Positions 15,102 to 22,710 of a stretch of DNA of 64,000 nt are shown here, in pieces. The notes beneath the pieces were generated by a model. It did not search any database and was not told the DNA's origin. It saw only the letters and a program-made list of their open reading frames with translations. Position 1 is the first letter of the stretch. Each line of letters opens with the position of its first letter. The position numbers were made by a program, and so were the translations under genes. The DNA comes from Pseudomonas sp. Irchel s3h17 (GTDB taxonomy: Bacteria; Pseudomonadota; Gammaproteobacteria; Pseudomonadales; Pseudomonadaceae). The stretch lies in contig NZ_FYDL01000003.1 of the NCBI RefSeq assembly GCF_900187505.1, forward strand, positions 186,001 to 250,000, written 5' to 3'.

Positions 15102-16730
15102 TTACAGCAGGATGGTGCGGATGTCGCCCAGCAGGTCGCTCAGACGCTTGGTGAAACGGGCCGCAGCGGCGCCGTTGATCACGCGGTGGTCGTAGGACAG
15201 CGACAGTGGCAGCATCAGTTTCGGCTGGAAGGCTTTACCGTCCCAGACAGGCTGGATGGTTGCCTTGGAAACACCGAGGATCGCCACTTCCGGCGCGTTG
15301 ACGATCGGCGTGAAGCCGGTGCCGCCAATGTGGCCGAGGCTGGAAATGGTGAAGCAGGCGCCTTGCATGTCGTCAGCGGTGAGCTTCTTGTCGCGGGCTT
15401 TGGCTGCCAGCGCGGCGGCTTCGGCTGCCAGTTGCAACAGGCTCTTCTGGTCGACGTTCTTGATGACCGGTACCAGCAGGCCATCCGGGGTGTCGACCGC
15501 GAAGCCGATGTTCACGTACTTCTTGCGGATGATCGCCTTGCCGCTTGGCGCCAGCGAACTGTTGAAGTCCGGCAGCTCCTTGAGCAGGTGCGCGCACGAC
15601 TTGAGCAGCAGCGGCAGGATGGTCAGCTTGACGCCAGCCTTCTCTGCAACGGCTTTCTGAGCGATGCGGAACGCTTCCAGCTCGGTGATATCAGCCGAGT
15701 CGAACTGAGTCACGTGCGGAATGTTCAACCAGCTGCGATGCAGGCTCGACGCGCCGATCTGCATCAGGCGGGTCATCGGCACTTCTTCGGTTTCACCGAA
15801 GCGGCTGAAGTCCACGACCGGGATCGGTGGAATGCCGGCACCGCCGGTTGCGCCTGCAGCCGGAGCTTCTTTGGCCTTCTGCATCATGGCTTTGACGTAA
15901 ACCTGTACGTCTTCCTTGAGCACGCGACCGTGTGGGCCGCTTGGGCTCACTGCATTCAGTTCGACGCCGAACTCGCGGGCCAGCAGGCGTACTGCCGGGC
16001 CTGCGTGCACCTTGGCGCCGCTTGGCGCAGGTGCTGCAACCGGGGCTGTCGCAGCCTCGGCTTTGACAGCCGGTGCCGGTGCCGCAGCCGGTGCTGCCGC
16101 TGGCGCGGGAGCCGCCGCTTGCGCTGGCGCAGCCGGAGCCGCAGCACCTGCCACTTTCAACTTGAGGATAAAGTCGCCAGTGCCGACTTCGTCTTCGAGT
16201 TTGACCGCGATGCTTTCCACCACGCCGGCAGCCGGCGAAGGAATTTCCATGCTGGCCTTGTCGGATTCCAGGGTGATCAGCGATTGATCAGCCTCGACGG
16301 TATCGCCGACCTTGACCAGCAGCTCGATGATCTTGGCCTTGCCCGATGAGCCGATATCCGGGACGTGGATGTCCTGGATGGTGGCGGCAGCAGGTGCTGC
16401 CGCTGGCGCTGGAGCAGCAGCCGGTGCTGGCGCAGCAGCAGGAGCCGCGGCGGCCGGAGCAGGAGCGGCGGCTGGTGCCGCGGGTGCCGCAGCGGCACCC
16501 TCGACTTCCAGTTCCATCAGTTCGTCGCCTTCTTTCAGGCGATCGCCCAGCTTCACTTTCAGGCTCTTGATGACGCCGGCCTTGGGGGCCGGAATCTCCA
16601 TGCTCGCCTTGTCCGACTCAAGTGTCAGCAGGCTCTGGTCAGCTTCGATGCGATCACCGACCTTGACCATCAGTTCAATTACTTCACCTTCACCGCTGCC
16701 GATGTCAGGTACGCGAATGAGTTCGCTCAC
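15102..16730 (-). CDS. aceF: Pyruvate dehydrogenase E2, dihydrolipoyllysine acetyltransferase
   Basis: AceF (542 aa) is the core of the pyruvate dehydrogenase complex and transfers the acetyl group from lipoamide to CoA. Two lipoyl domains are visible, each with the lipoylated Lys in ESDKASMEIP (near residues 41 and 160). They are joined by Ala/Pro-rich linkers (77-115 and 195-240). A peripheral-subunit-binding domain (about 245-285) precedes the catalytic domain, which ends with the active-site motif SYDHRVINGAAAARF. The start is GTG at 16730 with GAGGAG 9 bases upstream, inside the 11-base gap after aceE, so the two genes are one transcript. Confidence 0.97.
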   Translation of the reverse strand: MSELIRVPDIGSGEGEVIELMVKVGDRIEADQSLLTLESDKASMEIPAPKAGVIKSLKVKLGDRLKEGDELMELEVEGAAAAPAAPAAAPAPAAAAPAAAPAPAAAPAPAAAPAAATIQDIHVPDIGSSGKAKIIELLVKVGDTVEADQSLITLESDKASMEIPSPAAGVVESIAVKLEDEVGTGDFILKLKVAGAAAPAAPAQAAAPAPAAAPAAAPAPAVKAEAATAPVAAPAPSGAKVHAGPAVRLLAREFGVELNAVSPSGPHGRVLKEDVQVYVKAMMQKAKEAPAAGATGGAGIPPIPVVDFSRFGETEEVPMTRLMQIGASSLHRSWLNIPHVTQFDSADITELEAFRIAQKAVAEKAGVKLTILPLLLKSCAHLLKELPDFNSSLAPSGKAIIRKKYVNIGFAVDTPDGLLVPVIKNVDQKSLLQLAAEAAALAAKARDKKLTADDMQGACFTISSLGHIGGTGFTPIVNAPEVAILGVSKATIQPVWDGKAFQPKLMLPLSLSYDHRVINGAAAARFTKRLSDLLGDIRTILL

Positions 16731-16741
16731 AGAGTCTCTCC

Positions 16742-19387
16742 TCAGCAGTCCAGTGGGTTGCGTTTTTCCGGGTTGATACCGAACTTGGCGATGGCTTCAG
16801 CCACGACCTTGGGTTCGATGTCACCGCGATCAGCCAGTGCTTCAAGGGCTGCCAACACCACGAAATGACGGTCGACTTCGAAGAAATGACGCAGTTTCTT
16901 GCGGCTGTCGCTGCGGCCGAAACCGTCGGTGCCCAGGACTTTGAATTCCTTGGACGGTACCCACTGACGGATCTGCTCGGCGAACAGTTTCATGTAGTCG
17001 GTAGACGCGATGACCGGACCTTTGCGGCCGTTCAGGCACTCTTCCACATAGCTCAGCTTAGGCTTCTGGCCCGGGTGCAAACGGTTGGTGCGCTCGACGG
17101 CCAGGCCATCGCGACGCAGTTCGTTGAAGCTGGTAACGCTCCACACGTCAGCGCCGACGTTGAACTCTTCACGCAGGATCTTCGCCGCTTCACGGACTTC
17201 ACGCAGGATGGTGCCGGAGCCCATCAGCTGAACGTGGTGCGCCGCTTCGCGGTTGTCTTCTTCGAGCAGGTACATGCCTTTCTTGATGCCTTCTTCGGCA
17301 CCGGCCGGCATGGCTGGCTGCTGGTACGACTCGTTCATCACGGTGATGTAGTAGAAGACGTCCTGTTGCTCTTCGGTCATCTTTCGCATGCCGTCCTGAA
17401 TGATCACCGCCAGCTCGTAGCCGTAGGTCGGATCGTAGGTGCGGCAGTTCGGGATGGTGGAAGCCAGCAGGTGGCTGTGACCGTCTTCGTGTTGCAGGCC
17501 TTCACCGTTCAGGGTGGTACGGCCGGCGGTGCCGCCGATCAGGAAACCGCGGGTACGGCTGTCGCCAGCGGCCCAGGCCAGGTCGCCGATACGCTGGAAG
17601 CCGAACATCGAGTAGAAGATGTAGAACGGCAGCATCGGCTGGTTGTGGCTGGAGTACGAAGTACCGGCCGCGATGAAGGAGCTCATGGCGCCCGCTTCGT
17701 TGATGCCTTCCTCGAGGATCTGGCCCTTCTGGTCTTCCTTGTAGAACATCACCTGGTCTTTATCGACTGGCTCGTAGAGCTGGCCAACGGACGAGTAGAT
17801 GCCCAACTGACGGAACATGCCTTCCATACCGAAGGTACGGGCTTCGTCCGGGATGATCGGAACGATGCGCGGGCCGATTTCCTTGTCCTTGACCAATTGC
17901 GCGAGGATTCGCACGAAGGCCATGGTGGTGGAGATTTCACGGTCGCCCGAGCCGTCCAGGATCGCCTTGAGGGTGTCCAGTGGCGGAGTCGGGATGCTGA
18001 AGCTTTTGGCGCGACGCTGAGGCACGAAGCCGCCCAGTGCGGTACGGCGCTCGCTCAGGTAACGGGCTTCGGCGCTGCCTTCTTCCGGTTTGAAGAACGG
18101 CAGGTTTTCCAGTTCGTCGTCTTTGACCGGGATGTCGAAACGATCGCGGAACAACTTCAGGCTGTCGACATCGACCTTCTTGGTGTTGTGCGCGGTGTTC
18201 TTCGCTTCGCCTGCACCGGTGCCATAACCCTTGATGGTCTTGGCCAGGATGACAGTCGGTTGTTCTTTGTGGTTGACCGCTTCGTGGTAGGCCGCATAGA
18301 CCTTGTACGGGTCGTGGCCGCCACGGTTGAGCTTCCAGATCTCGTCGTCGGACAGGTCTTCAACCATCGCCTTGAGTTCAGGCGTGTTGAAGAAGTGTTC
18401 ACGCACGAACGCGCCGTCTTTGGCTTTGTAGTTCTGGTACTCGCCGTCGATGACTTCGTCCATGCGACGTTGCAGGATGCCGTCGACGTCCTTGGCCAGC
18501 AGTGGGTCCCAGAAACGGCCCCAGATGACTTTGGTCACGTTCCACTGAGCACCGCGGAACACGCCTTCGAGTTCCTGGATGATCTTGCCGTTGCCGCGAA
18601 CCGGGCCGTCGAGGCGCTGCAGGTTGCAGTTGATGACGAAGATCAGGTTGTCCAGCTTCTCGCGGCCGGCCAGGGAGATGGCGCCCAGGGATTCCGGCTC
18701 GTCGCACTCGCCGTCGCCCAGGAAGCACCAGACTTTCTGTTTGCCTGGCTGGATGAAGCCACGGTGCTCCAGGTACTTCATGAAGCGCGCCTGGTAGATC
18801 GCCTGGATCGGGCCCAGACCCATGGATACGGTCGGGAACTGCCAGAAGTCAGGCATCAGCCACGGGTGCGGATAGGACGACAAGCCCTGGCCGTCGACTT
18901 CCTGGCGGAAGTTGTTCATCTGGTCTTCGGTGATGCGGCCTTCCATGAACGCACGGGCGTAAACGCCTGGCGAGGTGTGGCCCTGGAAGTAGATCAGGTC
19001 GCCGCCGTGTTCGTCGGTCGGGGCCTGGAAGAAGTAGTTGAAGCCGATGTCATACAGGGTTGCGCTGGAGGCGAAGCTGGAGATGTGACCGCCCAGGTCA
19101 GAATCTTTCAGGTTCGTACGCATCACCATGGCCATCGCGTTCCAGCGTACCAACGAGCGAATGCGGCGTTCCATGAACAGGTCGCCAGGCATGCGTGCTT
19201 CGTGGGTCACGGGGATGGTGTTGCGGTACGGCGTGGTGATGGCGTAAGGGAGCTGCGAGCCGCTGCGGGTCGCAAGTTCGCCCATACGGGTCATCAGATA
19301 GTGAGCACGGTCTTCGCCTTCTTTGTCGAGAACCGATTCCAGGGCGTCCAGCCATTCCTGGGTTTCGACGGGATCGAGGTCTTGCAT
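16742..19387 (-). CDS. aceE: Pyruvate dehydrogenase E1 component (homodimeric)
   Basis: AceE (881 aa) decarboxylates pyruvate with thiamine diphosphate and acetylates the lipoyl groups of AceF. The TPP/magnesium motif is GDGECDEPESLGAIS near residue 227, followed by FVINCNLQRLDGPVRGNGKI. The N-terminus (QDLDPVETQEWLDALESVL) resembles the E2-interacting start of homodimeric E1 enzymes. The length is standard for gammaproteobacteria. The ATG at 19387 has GGAG upstream. It is divergent from glnE; two palindromic 15-bp sites upstream suggest control by RccR. Confidence 0.97.
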   Translation of the reverse strand: MQDLDPVETQEWLDALESVLDKEGEDRAHYLMTRMGELATRSGSQLPYAITTPYRNTIPVTHEARMPGDLFMERRIRSLVRWNAMAMVMRTNLKDSDLGGHISSFASSATLYDIGFNYFFQAPTDEHGGDLIYFQGHTSPGVYARAFMEGRITEDQMNNFRQEVDGQGLSSYPHPWLMPDFWQFPTVSMGLGPIQAIYQARFMKYLEHRGFIQPGKQKVWCFLGDGECDEPESLGAISLAGREKLDNLIFVINCNLQRLDGPVRGNGKIIQELEGVFRGAQWNVTKVIWGRFWDPLLAKDVDGILQRRMDEVIDGEYQNYKAKDGAFVREHFFNTPELKAMVEDLSDDEIWKLNRGGHDPYKVYAAYHEAVNHKEQPTVILAKTIKGYGTGAGEAKNTAHNTKKVDVDSLKLFRDRFDIPVKDDELENLPFFKPEEGSAEARYLSERRTALGGFVPQRRAKSFSIPTPPLDTLKAILDGSGDREISTTMAFVRILAQLVKDKEIGPRIVPIIPDEARTFGMEGMFRQLGIYSSVGQLYEPVDKDQVMFYKEDQKGQILEEGINEAGAMSSFIAAGTSYSSHNQPMLPFYIFYSMFGFQRIGDLAWAAGDSRTRGFLIGGTAGRTTLNGEGLQHEDGHSHLLASTIPNCRTYDPTYGYELAVIIQDGMRKMTEEQQDVFYYITVMNESYQQPAMPAGAEEGIKKGMYLLEEDNREAAHHVQLMGSGTILREVREAAKILREEFNVGADVWSVTSFNELRRDGLAVERTNRLHPGQKPKLSYVEECLNGRKGPVIASTDYMKLFAEQIRQWVPSKEFKVLGTDGFGRSDSRKKLRHFFEVDRHFVVLAALEALADRGDIEPKVVAEAIAKFGINPEKRNPLDC

Positions 19388-19497
19388 GGCTTGCTCCAGG
19401 GCGGAAAGGCTACCAGAATCGGTTGCCTGAGTTAGCGACTGGCCTTGTGGGCAGACGTTATGAATTCTTGGATTGCCGGTAGGTTGACTCGGCGGCG

Positions 19498-19512
19498 TGT
19501 AGTTTTACTACA
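19498..19512. promoter_or_regulatory. RccR-type 15-bp palindromic operator upstream of aceE
   Basis: TGTAGTTTTACTACA is a TGTAGT-N3-ACTACA palindrome 111 bases before the aceE start. RccR, a KDPG-responsive RpiR-family regulator of P. fluorescens, is reported to bind a 15-bp pseudo-palindrome at aceE and a longer 28-bp one at glyoxylate-shunt genes. The match to the 15-bp type is inferred from my recollection of that work. Confidence 0.7.
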
Positions 19513-19549
19513 AATCGTCGGCCATTTCAGCCTTTCGAATGTATATACG

Positions 19550-19564
19550 AGTAGTAAAACTACA
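19550..19564. promoter_or_regulatory. Second RccR-type operator upstream of aceE
   Basis: AGTAGTAAAACTACA matches the palindrome at 19498-19512 (read on the other strand) in 14 of 15 positions. The two centres are 52 bases apart, about five helical turns, which would favour cooperative binding. It could act on aceE and perhaps on divergent glnE, whose start is 206 bases away. Confidence 0.62.
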
Positions 19565-19770
19565 GAAGTACGGCTTGTGGCCTCCTGTTTCGTTGTGAGA
19601 ATAATCGTTACTCTTGGTCTTTAGCCAACCAGAAAAGGTAAAAGCTTGATGCTGGCTACCAAAAAAACAGACATTTCAGCTATTTCTAACTTTTGTTCGA
19701 CAGTCCTTTGCGTAGTGCATTTGATGCGATCACTACAGACCGCCCTTCCTACGCCGATCAAGGATAGACC

Positions 19771-22710
19771 ATGAGCCTCCCTTCGCTTGCCCCTCTGCCC
19801 GCCATTCTCCTGCCGTTTGTCAGCCGCGCCGAGCAATCCTTTCGCGCCGCCGTCGCCGCGCTGGATGACGATCATGGCCTGTCTTCCTGGACGCCTGAAC
19901 GCTGGGCGGACTTCGCCCGGGTAACGGCCGCCAGCGACTTTGTCATTGAACAGTGCGTGCGTGATCCCTTGATGCTGCTCACGCTTGCGCAGTCCGGGGA
20001 GCTGGATCGCGCCTTCGCCCCCGGCGAGCTGTGCGGGCAAATCGCCGCCGCCGCGCAAAGTGCCGCCACGGATGATGAGTTGGGCCGGGTCCTGCGTCGG
20101 CAGCGCAACCGGCAGCAGGTGCGGATTGTCTGGCGTGACCTGACCCGCCAGACCGACCTGGTCCAGACGTGTCGCGACCTGTCCGACATGGCCGATGCCT
20201 GCATCGATCAGGCCTATCAATGGTTGTACCAGCGCCACTGCCAGCAATTTGGTACGCCCATGGGCTGGCGCAGCGGCGAGCCGCAGCAGATGGTGGTTCT
20301 CGGCATGGGCAAGCTCGGTGCGGTGGAGCTCAACCTGTCCTCCGACATCGACCTGATCTTCGCCTACCCCGAGGGTGGCGAAACGGTTGGGGTGAAGCGG
20401 GCGCTGGACAACCAGGAGTTCTTCATTCGTTTGGGTCAGCGCCTGATCAAGGCCCTGGACCCGATCACCGTCGATGGTTTTGTCTTCCGCGTCGACATGC
20501 GCCTGCGTCCCTACGGTTCGTCCGGCGCACTGGTGCTCAGCTTCAATGCACTGGAACAGTATTACCAGGATCAGGGCCGCGACTGGGAACGCTACGCGAT
20601 GATCAAGGCGCGGGTGGTGGCCGGTGATCAGCAGGCGGGCGCGCAGTTGCTCGACCTGCTGCGTCCCTTCGTCTATCGGCGTTATCTGGATTTCTCGGCG
20701 ATTGAAGCGCTGCGCACCATGAAACAGCTGATCCAGCAGGAAGTGCGGCGCAAGGGCATGGCCGACAATATCAAGCTGGGGGCCGGCGGGATCCGGGAGG
20801 TCGAGTTTATTGCCCAGGCCTTCCAGCTGATTCACGGCGGCCGCGACCTGAGCCTGCAGCAGCGTCCTCTGTTAAAAGTCCTTGGCACGCTGGAGGGGCA
20901 GGGTTATTTGCCGCCGGCGGTCATCGGCGAACTGCGCGAGGGCTATGAGTTCCTGCGTTACACCGAGCACGCGATTCAGGCGATTGCCGACCGGCAAACG
21001 CAAATGCTCCCCGACAGCGAGCAGGGCCAGGCGCGTATTGCCTTTATGCTGGGGTTCGCCAATTGGACGGCGTTCCATGAGCAACTGATGTATTGGCGTG
21101 GCCGGGTCGACTGGCACTTTCGCCAAGTGATTGCCGATCCGGATGAAGAGGACGGCGAGGAAAGCGAAGTGGTGGTCGGTGGTGAGTGGCTGCCACTTTG
21201 GGAGGAGGCCCAGGACGAGGAAGCCGCTTGCCGTCAGTTGGAAGAGGGCGGCTTTGCCGATGCGTCCAAGGCGCTCAAGGCCCTCGCCGGCCTGCGTGGC
21301 AGCCCGCAGTTGCGAGCGATGCAGCGCCTGGGGCGCGAGCGTCTCGATGCCTTTATCCCCCGGTTGCTGGCCCAGGCCGTGGAGCACGCCAATCCGGACC
21401 TGGTGCTGGAGCGGGTGTTGCCACTGGTTGAAGCGGTGGCGCGGCGCTCGGCGTATCTGGTGCTGCTCACGGAAAACCCTGGCGCGCTGCGTCGATTGCT
21501 GACCTTGTGTGCGGCCAGTCCGTGGATTGCCGAGCAGATCACCCGCTTCCCGCTGCTGCTCGACGAGTTGCTCAATGAAGGCCGGCTGTTCAAACCACCG
21601 CTGGCGCCGGAACTGGCTGCCGAGCTGCGTGAGCGCCTGACGCGCATTCCCGAGGATGACCTTGAGCAGCAGATGGAAGCCTTGCGCCATTTCAAGCTGG
21701 CGCACCGCTTGCGCGTGGCGGCCTCGGAAATTGCCGGCAGCCTGCCGTTGATGAAGGTCAGCGATTACCTGACCTGGCTCGCCGAAGCGATTCTGGAACA
21801 GGTGCTGGCGCTGGCCTGGCGGCAGACGGCAGCCAAGTATGGCGCGCCACAACGCCCCGACGGCACCCTGTGTGACCCGGGCTTTGTGATTGTCGGTTAC
21901 GGCAAGGTCGGCGGGCTGGAGCTCGGACATGGTTCGGACCTGGACCTGGTGTTTATCCACGACGCAGACCCCGTGGCCGAAACCGATGGGCCCAAGCCCA
22001 TCGATGGCGCACAGTTCTTTACCCGGCTGGGCCAGCGGATCATTCATTTGCTGACCACTCAGACCAACTCCGGCCAGTTGTATGAAGTCGACATGCGCTT
22101 GCGTCCTTCGGGGGCGTCGGGGCTGCTGGTCAGTTCGCTCGGCGCGTTCGAGCGCTATCAGGAGAACGAAGCCTGGACCTGGGAGCATCAGGCACTGGTG
22201 CGGGCGCGGGTGCTGGTGGGCAGTCAGGACGTTGGGCAATCCTTCGAGAAGGTTCGCGCCAAAGTGCTGGGGCGTGCCCGGGACTTGCTCAAGCTGCGGC
22301 AGGAAGTCAGTGAGATGCGCGCCAAGATGCGCGACAACCTGGGGACCAAGAGCACCGCTGCCGGCACCGCTGCCAATGCCTTCGAAGCCACGGCGCCGTT
22401 TGATCTCAAGCAGGATGCCGGTGGTATCGTCGATATTGAATTTATGGTGCAATACGCGGCCCTGGCGTGGTCCGACACCCACCCTTCGCTGCTGCGTTAT
22501 ACGGATAACATCCGCATTCTGGAGGGGCTTGAGGAGGTCGGGTTGATGCCCGCCGAAGATGCCAGCCTGCTGCGAGAGGTCTATAAAGCCTATCGCTCCG
22601 CGGCGCACCGCCAGGCTTTGCAGAATGAAGCCGGGGTGGTGCCGGGGGATCAGTTTGCCGCCGAGCGGCGTGAGGTCCTGCGGATCTGGGCGTGGCTGGG
22701 TTTGAGCTGA
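19771..22710 (+). CDS. glnE: Glutamine synthetase adenylyltransferase/adenylyl-removing enzyme
   Basis: GlnE (979 aa) adds AMP to, and removes it from, the regulatory Tyr of glutamine synthetase in response to PII and glutamine. It has two nucleotidyltransferase domains. The N-terminal adenylyl-removing half has GMGKLGAVELNLSSDIDLIF near residue 180. The C-terminal adenylyl-transferase half has GYGKVGGLELGHGSDLDLVF near 710. A regulatory helical linker lies between. Length is in the normal range. The ATG at 19771 follows AAGGA. The gene is divergent from aceE and is followed after 136 bases by waaF. Confidence 0.97.
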   Translation: MSLPSLAPLPAILLPFVSRAEQSFRAAVAALDDDHGLSSWTPERWADFARVTAASDFVIEQCVRDPLMLLTLAQSGELDRAFAPGELCGQIAAAAQSAATDDELGRVLRRQRNRQQVRIVWRDLTRQTDLVQTCRDLSDMADACIDQAYQWLYQRHCQQFGTPMGWRSGEPQQMVVLGMGKLGAVELNLSSDIDLIFAYPEGGETVGVKRALDNQEFFIRLGQRLIKALDPITVDGFVFRVDMRLRPYGSSGALVLSFNALEQYYQDQGRDWERYAMIKARVVAGDQQAGAQLLDLLRPFVYRRYLDFSAIEALRTMKQLIQQEVRRKGMADNIKLGAGGIREVEFIAQAFQLIHGGRDLSLQQRPLLKVLGTLEGQGYLPPAVIGELREGYEFLRYTEHAIQAIADRQTQMLPDSEQGQARIAFMLGFANWTAFHEQLMYWRGRVDWHFRQVIADPDEEDGEESEVVVGGEWLPLWEEAQDEEAACRQLEEGGFADASKALKALAGLRGSPQLRAMQRLGRERLDAFIPRLLAQAVEHANPDLVLERVLPLVEAVARRSAYLVLLTENPGALRRLLTLCAASPWIAEQITRFPLLLDELLNEGRLFKPPLAPELAAELRERLTRIPEDDLEQQMEALRHFKLAHRLRVAASEIAGSLPLMKVSDYLTWLAEAILEQVLALAWRQTAAKYGAPQRPDGTLCDPGFVIVGYGKVGGLELGHGSDLDLVFIHDADPVAETDGPKPIDGAQFFTRLGQRIIHLLTTQTNSGQLYEVDMRLRPSGASGLLVSSLGAFERYQENEAWTWEHQALVRARVLVGSQDVGQSFEKVRAKVLGRARDLLKLRQEVSEMRAKMRDNLGTKSTAAGTAANAFEATAPFDLKQDAGGIVDIEFMVQYAALAWSDTHPSLLRYTDNIRILEGLEEVGLMPAEDASLLREVYKAYRSAAHRQALQNEAGVVPGDQFAAERREVLRIWAWLGLS

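Follow-up and report, generated by a model that had tools for sequence, protein, structure and literature searches.

A conserved pair of RccR operators upstream of aceE and a candidate long-linker RccR site before divergent glnE in a Pseudomonas genome

Repression of aceE by RccR and its release by KDPG are established in P. fluorescens SBW25 and in PAO1 (PMC5489143, PMC10810197). For SBW25, Campilongo 2017 (PMC5489143) describes two 15-bp sequences upstream of aceE, a double ChIP-seq peak at this gene, and two DNase footprints with apparent cooperativity that flank hypersensitive DNA, suggesting bending. The same paper reports that the stretch bound by RccR takes in the verified start of p-aceE, that the affinity of RccR for aceE lies above that for the aceA site, and that KDPG lowers the affinity at aceE while raising it at the 28-bp aceA site; pckA, with what is called a 29-bp site, is bound more weakly than the other targets. 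In PAO1, studied by EMSA and RNA-seq, the aceE promoter is likewise bound by RccR, and KDPG relieves the binding; the PAO1 protein shows the same opposite responses to KDPG, and the crystal structure of RccR with KDPG is tetrameric (PMC10810197). The main text of that paper contains none of the words ‘motif’, ‘palindrom’ or ‘consensus’. HexR belongs to the same regulator family and responds to the same ligand, and its operator consensus is quoted as TTGT-N7-8-ACAA (PMC5489143).

The paired 15-bp sites and the regulator

We analysed a 64-kb stretch of Pseudomonas sp. Irchel s3h17 DNA (64,000 nt, hereafter the window, whose positions are used below), in which aceE and glnE are divergent and separated by an intergenic region of 383 bp (19388-19770). 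The features considered here are the following:

15102..16730, minus strand: aceF, dihydrolipoyllysine-residue acetyltransferase (TIGR01348, 783 bits)
16742..19387, minus strand: aceE, pyruvate dehydrogenase E1 (TIGR00759, 1487 bits)
19498..19512, minus strand: aceE-proximal 15-bp RccR operator, TGTAGTAAAACTACA on the aceE strand, probably including the aceE -10
19502..19507, minus strand: candidate aceE -10, TAAAAC on the aceE strand, predicted, within the proximal operator
19525..19530, minus strand: candidate aceE -35, CTGAAA on the aceE strand, predicted from genus-weighted conservation
19550..19564, minus strand: aceE-distal 15-bp RccR operator, TGTAGTTTTACTACT on the aceE strand
19711..19737, plus strand: candidate third RccR site with a long linker, CGTAGTG-N13-CACTACA, 33 bp before the glnE start
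19771..22710, plus strand: glnE, glutamine synthetase adenylyltransferase / deadenylylase (NF008292, 1299 bits)

The original prediction placed two 15-bp palindromes 52 bp apart upstream of aceE, and both are there: the proximal site (19498-19512) has no mismatch and the distal site (19550-19564) one mismatch to TGTAGT-N3-ACTACA (TGTAGTNNNACTACA), and no other place in the window comes within one mismatch. Their predicted match in 14 of 15 bases holds once one site is reverse-complemented but not on direct comparison, where 11 of 15 bases are equal; the two copies are thus inverted relative to each other. Measured from start to start or from centre to centre, the spacing of 52 bp corresponds to 4.95 turns at 10.5 bp per turn, with a gap of 37 bp and an outer span of 67 bp. 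SBW25 carries the same two sequences next to the same glnE neighbour (PFLU0461 beside PFLU0460); the separation printed for its sites is 68 bp as opposed to 52 bp here, and we take the printed value to be about the outer span (PMC5489143). The aceE pair is therefore already known, as the published model site of RccR.

The bare number of matches is weak evidence, since three places in the window lie within two mismatches against a shuffle mean of 0.47, and three of 100 shuffles also gave three. Nor is a single site unusual, the whole genome (5.5 Mb) having eight places with at most one mismatch as compared to 16 for the backwards pattern. Two such sites within the 383-bp intergenic region, by contrast, have an expectation of ~5e-7 under the local base composition. 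The motif search of Pseudomonas aceE promoters that had been proposed as a check found an exact GTAGT-N3-ACTAC core pair, 22-52 bp apart, in 364 of 398 genus genomes, against seven with the backwards pattern (these seven were counted by eye). The HexR consensus, on the other hand, has no match with one mismatch or fewer across 19388-19770.

The genome encodes a 288-aa RccR, whose own gene has an exact TGTAGT-N3-ACTACA site upstream. Its closest solved chains are 8k3b, an entry named once in PMC10810197, and 8ju9; it is a close homologue of PAO1 RccR, and all nine residues reported in that paper to contact KDPG are kept. These residues, together with the identity of both sites to those published for SBW25, bear out the RccR-type assignment made from the window. 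A second RpiR-family protein in the genome, 44% identical to RccR, is presumably HexR. Across the family, RccR was matched in 54 of the 58 genomes searched, out of 59 in total (G447, which has no aceE match, was left out). One genus, represented by three genomes, has neither RccR nor the proximal aceE site, and genome G439 has the proximal site and no RccR match at E 1e-30, perhaps due to a draft gap.

Identical site sequences, conserved spacing and an RccR gene in the same genome are what the present analysis establishes for the aceE pair, which is very probably the RccR operator of aceEF. That two copies would make a cooperative target was also correctly predicted, and had already been reported from the SBW25 footprints (PMC5489143).

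Conservation of the spacing and the core promoter

We followed the pair through three sets of loci. The first comprised 80 named loci chosen by 100% identity over 50 residues, that is, close relatives. Here 79 have an exact proximal site, the contig of the 80th beginning too near aceE; in 75 of these 79 a distal site (at most two mismatches) sits 52 bp away and in one 53 bp away, and three have none. The second set came from the 34 genus genomes without the strict core pair, 33 of which have aceE; in the 30 loci read, the proximal site is exact in 29, while the distal site is decayed (2-3 mismatches) at exactly 52 bp in 24 and absent in six. The third was a family set of 57 loci from 19 genera, excluding eight paralogue loci and the locus of the window itself (L131). 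In this set the proximal site is exact in 52 loci and within one mismatch in 54, at about 100 to 184 bp from the ATG, and a distal site with at most two mismatches is found in 33, at 51 bp in nine, 52 bp in 22, 53 bp in one and 48 bp in one. Hence 32 of the 33 paired loci are spaced at 51-53 bp. Eleven of the 19 genera show such a pair; in the other eight, sampled with one to five genomes each, none was found, suggesting that the distal site is dispensable there.

On the aceE tree, the distal site stayed unchanged in 34 species in which the DNA between the sites changed ~1.2 times per column, and the proximal site is unchanged in either of the two clades tested. Divergent glnE accompanies aceE in all 109 genus loci and in 45 of 54 family loci; of the nine in which it was not seen, several had just 442-600 bp of upstream sequence.

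Two loci of genus g7 (L187 and L189) have no site at 52 bp; a weak distal one with three mismatches occurs at 62-63 bp, close to six turns of the helix, which may be chance. Second aceE-like copies, namely that of the genome under study (L196, C32:218042; 50% identical over the N-terminal 150 residues) and those of genus g9 (L177, L179, L181 and L185; 84-85% identical), have no RccR site with up to three mismatches in the 600 bp upstream.

The distal site could in principle be a conserved leftover without a role, with only the proximal site at work. The eight genera lacking the pair fit this idea, as do the genus loci in which the distal site is decayed or gone and the proximal one nearly always exact; against it stand the SBW25 footprints, where both sites are bound with apparent cooperativity (PMC5489143), and the absence of any change at the distal site in 34 species whose intervening DNA did change. 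We consider a role-less distal site very improbable. A related objection concerns the spacing, which might be fixed at 52 bp by the rarity of base gains and losses between the sites rather than by helical phase, just as the glnE side of the region has stayed at 206 bp in 69 of 80 tree rows. Across genera, however, the intervening sequence has been rewritten and the distance from site to ATG varies, yet nearly all pairs stay at 51-53 bp, and we regard an explanation by rare length changes as rather unlikely. The conserved five-turn spacing is an addition beyond the published pair.

Genus-weighted column conservation, with the proximal site as anchor, further revealed what may be the aceE core promoter. 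Outside the proximal site, conservation is strongest at a TGA at -17 to -15 and a G at -19, followed by TT at -2 and -1. The TGA falls into a -35-like hexamer, CTGAAA (19525-19530), whose T, G and A are conserved at 0.92, 0.95 and 0.83 (genus-weighted), and which is followed after 17 bp by TAAAAC (19502-19507) within the operator. The TGTAGT/ACTACA consensus leaves the central triplet open. In the family set, 52 of 54 proximal sites carry AAA here; among the 33 distal sites TTT prevails (27), and the others show five different triplets. We conclude that the proximal operator probably holds the aceE -10, in agreement with the reported RccR binding across the verified p-aceE start (PMC5489143). 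TAAAAC is a weak -10, and a TATACAT between the two sites, present in the window and in many relatives, competes with it; a consensus scan for sigma-70 promoters and terminators found nothing. The likely overlap of operator and -10 is a further addition to what is published on the pair.

Long-linker sites and the palindrome before glnE

The original prediction also held that the pair, lying upstream of divergent glnE, would couple this gene to pyruvate flux. This coupling through the two aceE sites is not supported. In SBW25, the divergent genes were tested by qRT-PCR in glycerol—the only medium used for this test, and one with little aceE control—and at this locus only PFLU0460 (aceE) responded (PMC5489143); PFLU0461 is glnE (PMC5210274). 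The pair itself therefore does not appear to control glnE, which is also missing from the published RccR regulon (Table 1 of PMC5489143). Our literature search found no paper naming both glnE and RccR, and among papers on RccR, Pseudomonas and binding site, none had glnE in its title. The idea of glnE control may nonetheless be partly right for another reason: in this lineage, a distinct RccR-like palindrome with a long linker lies a short way ahead of glnE.

For comparison, we located the long sites at known RccR targets in the same genome. Its aceA site reads TGTAGTG-N12-CACTACA, which amounts to an N14 linker between TGTAGT and ACTACA, and lies ~440 bp upstream of aceA; such a site was not seen within 350 bp upstream in any of six aceA loci scanned. 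The glcB site is TGTAGT-N14-ACTACA, with N14 in all six loci read (of 10 genomes found), and the pckA site, close upstream of its gene, has N15 in all 30 loci read (of 40 genomes found), its first base being G in 22 and T in eight. With real long sites at N14 or N15, the published length of 28 bp probably includes a flanking base at either end. TGTAGT-N16-ACTACA was tried as the long-site form and discarded: the window has no place within three mismatches, the genome has 32 at two mismatches compared to 225 for the backwards pattern, and the genes checked at two of its ten loci were not known RccR targets.

Loose matches to the long forms show no enrichment in the genome. At N14, the genome has 81 places with at most two mismatches versus 87 for the backwards pattern; three are exact, at aceA, at glcB and at C14:33121. 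At N15 the figures are 83 and 334, and among the six places with one mismatch are pckA and glnE, the genes at the other four suggesting no targets.

In three known targets, the ACTACA half is followed by a AAAACGTT-like tail that points towards the gene (AAAACGTTT at aceA and pckA, TAACGTTGG at glcB); this tail is possibly a hitherto undescribed part of the long RccR site. It does not occur at the rccR and pyruvate kinase sites. The exact N14 site on contig C14 (33121-33146; L229 1501-1526) lies between a DNA polymerase II gene on the minus strand and a short hypothetical gene on the plus strand, with a AAAACCGTT tail pointing to the plus-strand side; it is perhaps the PFLU2154 target. A further N14-type site with one mismatch, AGTAGTG...GACTACA, precedes a pyruvate kinase gene by ~50 bp (C37:351296-351321; L234 1501-1526); neither ‘pyk’ nor ‘pyruvate kinase’ appears in PMC5489143.

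The palindrome before glnE (19711-19737) is TGTAGT-N15-ACTACA with one mismatch and thus has the half-sites and linker of a long RccR operator. Its GTAGTG/CACTAC halves are the same as in the TGTAGTG/CACTACA of the genome's own aceA site, and its N15 linker and non-T first base are the format of pckA: the first base is G or C, and the consensus T is found in none of 31 unique glnE elements. GTAGTG-N13-CACTAC has 64 loose matches in the genome, against 581 for the backwards pattern, and one exact copy, which is the glnE element. Unlike the sites at aceA, pckA, glcB and C14, the element carries no AAAACGTT-like tail, a feature that is not a published criterion. It also differs from the 28/29-bp sites of the published regulon in being clade-specific and in standing before a gene outside that regulon. 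The case for the element comes from its position and conservation and not from the genome-wide rarity of loose matches.

Constraint on the element was assessed on a FastTree aceE tree of 80 rows, with clades read off the tree. Counting mismatches over the 12 half-site bases, the rows fall into 36 with 0-1 and 44 with 3-6, none having two, and presence and absence of the element require four changes on the tree. The counts of change cover 34 species with the element, being 28/28 and 6/6 rows of two clades (L095 and, on a suspiciously long branch, L023 also have the element and were left out). In these species, the 12 half-site columns underwent four changes in all, every one at 19716, as compared to 7.2 per column in the linker, 4.3 per column in the following flank and 1.7 per column in the preceding 19565-19710. 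In a 20-row sister clade without the element, half-site columns changed ~3.2 times per column and the linker 3.4 times. Judged only by how often the halves changed, nine of 180 offsets perform equally well; when the linker is set against the halves, offset 19712 comes first among all 180. The half-sites of the third palindrome are under constraint. The sister clade includes P. marginalis, P. rhodesiae, P. brenneri and P. costantinii. SBW25, which we take to be a member of the P. marginalis/P. rhodesiae subgroup, would then belong to the clade without the element, in keeping with its negative glnE result.

The stretch from the distal site to the glnE element (19565-19710) holds several other strongly conserved blocks, for instance at ~19678-19705, and an Rfam search of it gave no match.

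Whether RccR is what binds the palindrome has to be weighed against two other accounts of it. Another regulator might bind there, or the palindrome might act as an RNA hairpin in the glnE leader, and the non-consensus first base and missing tail speak for such readings. So does folding up to a point: the stem reaches -7.1 kcal/mol in the window, and the element of one relative folds more stably than the majority of its shuffles (z -1.9; 11 of 200 as good). The stem in the window, however, does not outperform shuffles (z -0.8); in seven of 31 unique elements (four changes on the tree), a C at 19716 disrupts a pair with no compensating change; and Rfam returned no match for the element, all of which makes a hairpin less likely. 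As for another regulator, the intergenic region holds no HexR consensus within one mismatch, and the shared halves with aceA and the shared format with pckA fit RccR. Taken together, we judge a different regulator or a hairpin to be less likely than not. The long palindrome could also be a remote third operator for aceE rather than one for glnE, given that it shares the intergenic region with the pair and lies 219 bp, centre to centre, from the proximal aceE site. Its place 33 bp from the glnE start, comparable to pckA sites adjoining pckA, argues otherwise, as do the species that lack the element and still keep the aceE pair; a remote aceE operator is thus quite unlikely. In our judgement, the chances are evenly balanced that the 19711-19737 palindrome serves glnE as a long-linker RccR site of its own in this lineage. 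The missing tail lowered this estimate from slightly above even, and likewise moved the reading with two kinds of operator, described below, from a little short of even to somewhat further below it. The candidate operator at glnE is an addition of this analysis, in contrast to the aceE pair, which is not new.

A proposed switch between aceEF and glnE

According to the proposed mechanism, RccR without KDPG would bind both 15-bp aceE sites, the proximal one covering the aceE core promoter. Five turns of the helix further upstream and on the same DNA face, the distal site would be auxiliary and strengthen binding, with the DNA between the sites bent; one RccR tetramer could bridge both. KDPG would weaken the binding, and aceEF would then be expressed. 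KDPG-bound RccR, in turn, would prefer the long-linker site at glnE, so that the divergent genes might respond to it in opposite ways.

We tentatively suggest, at somewhat less than even confidence, that part of the P. fluorescens complex has two kinds of RccR operator between these opposite genes: a 15-bp aceE pair that would be emptied by KDPG and a long-linker glnE site that would be filled by it. If so, pyruvate dehydrogenase and glutamine synthetase adenylyltransferase would answer to a single metabolite in opposite senses, one being turned on as the other is turned off, and the glnE half of this control would be missing from the very lineage in which RccR was first studied, presumably that of SBW25. 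Should RccR bind the glnE element, the absence of the site from that lineage would explain the negative glnE result in SBW25, and KDPG would be a direct carbon-to-nitrogen signal in many plant-associated pseudomonads.
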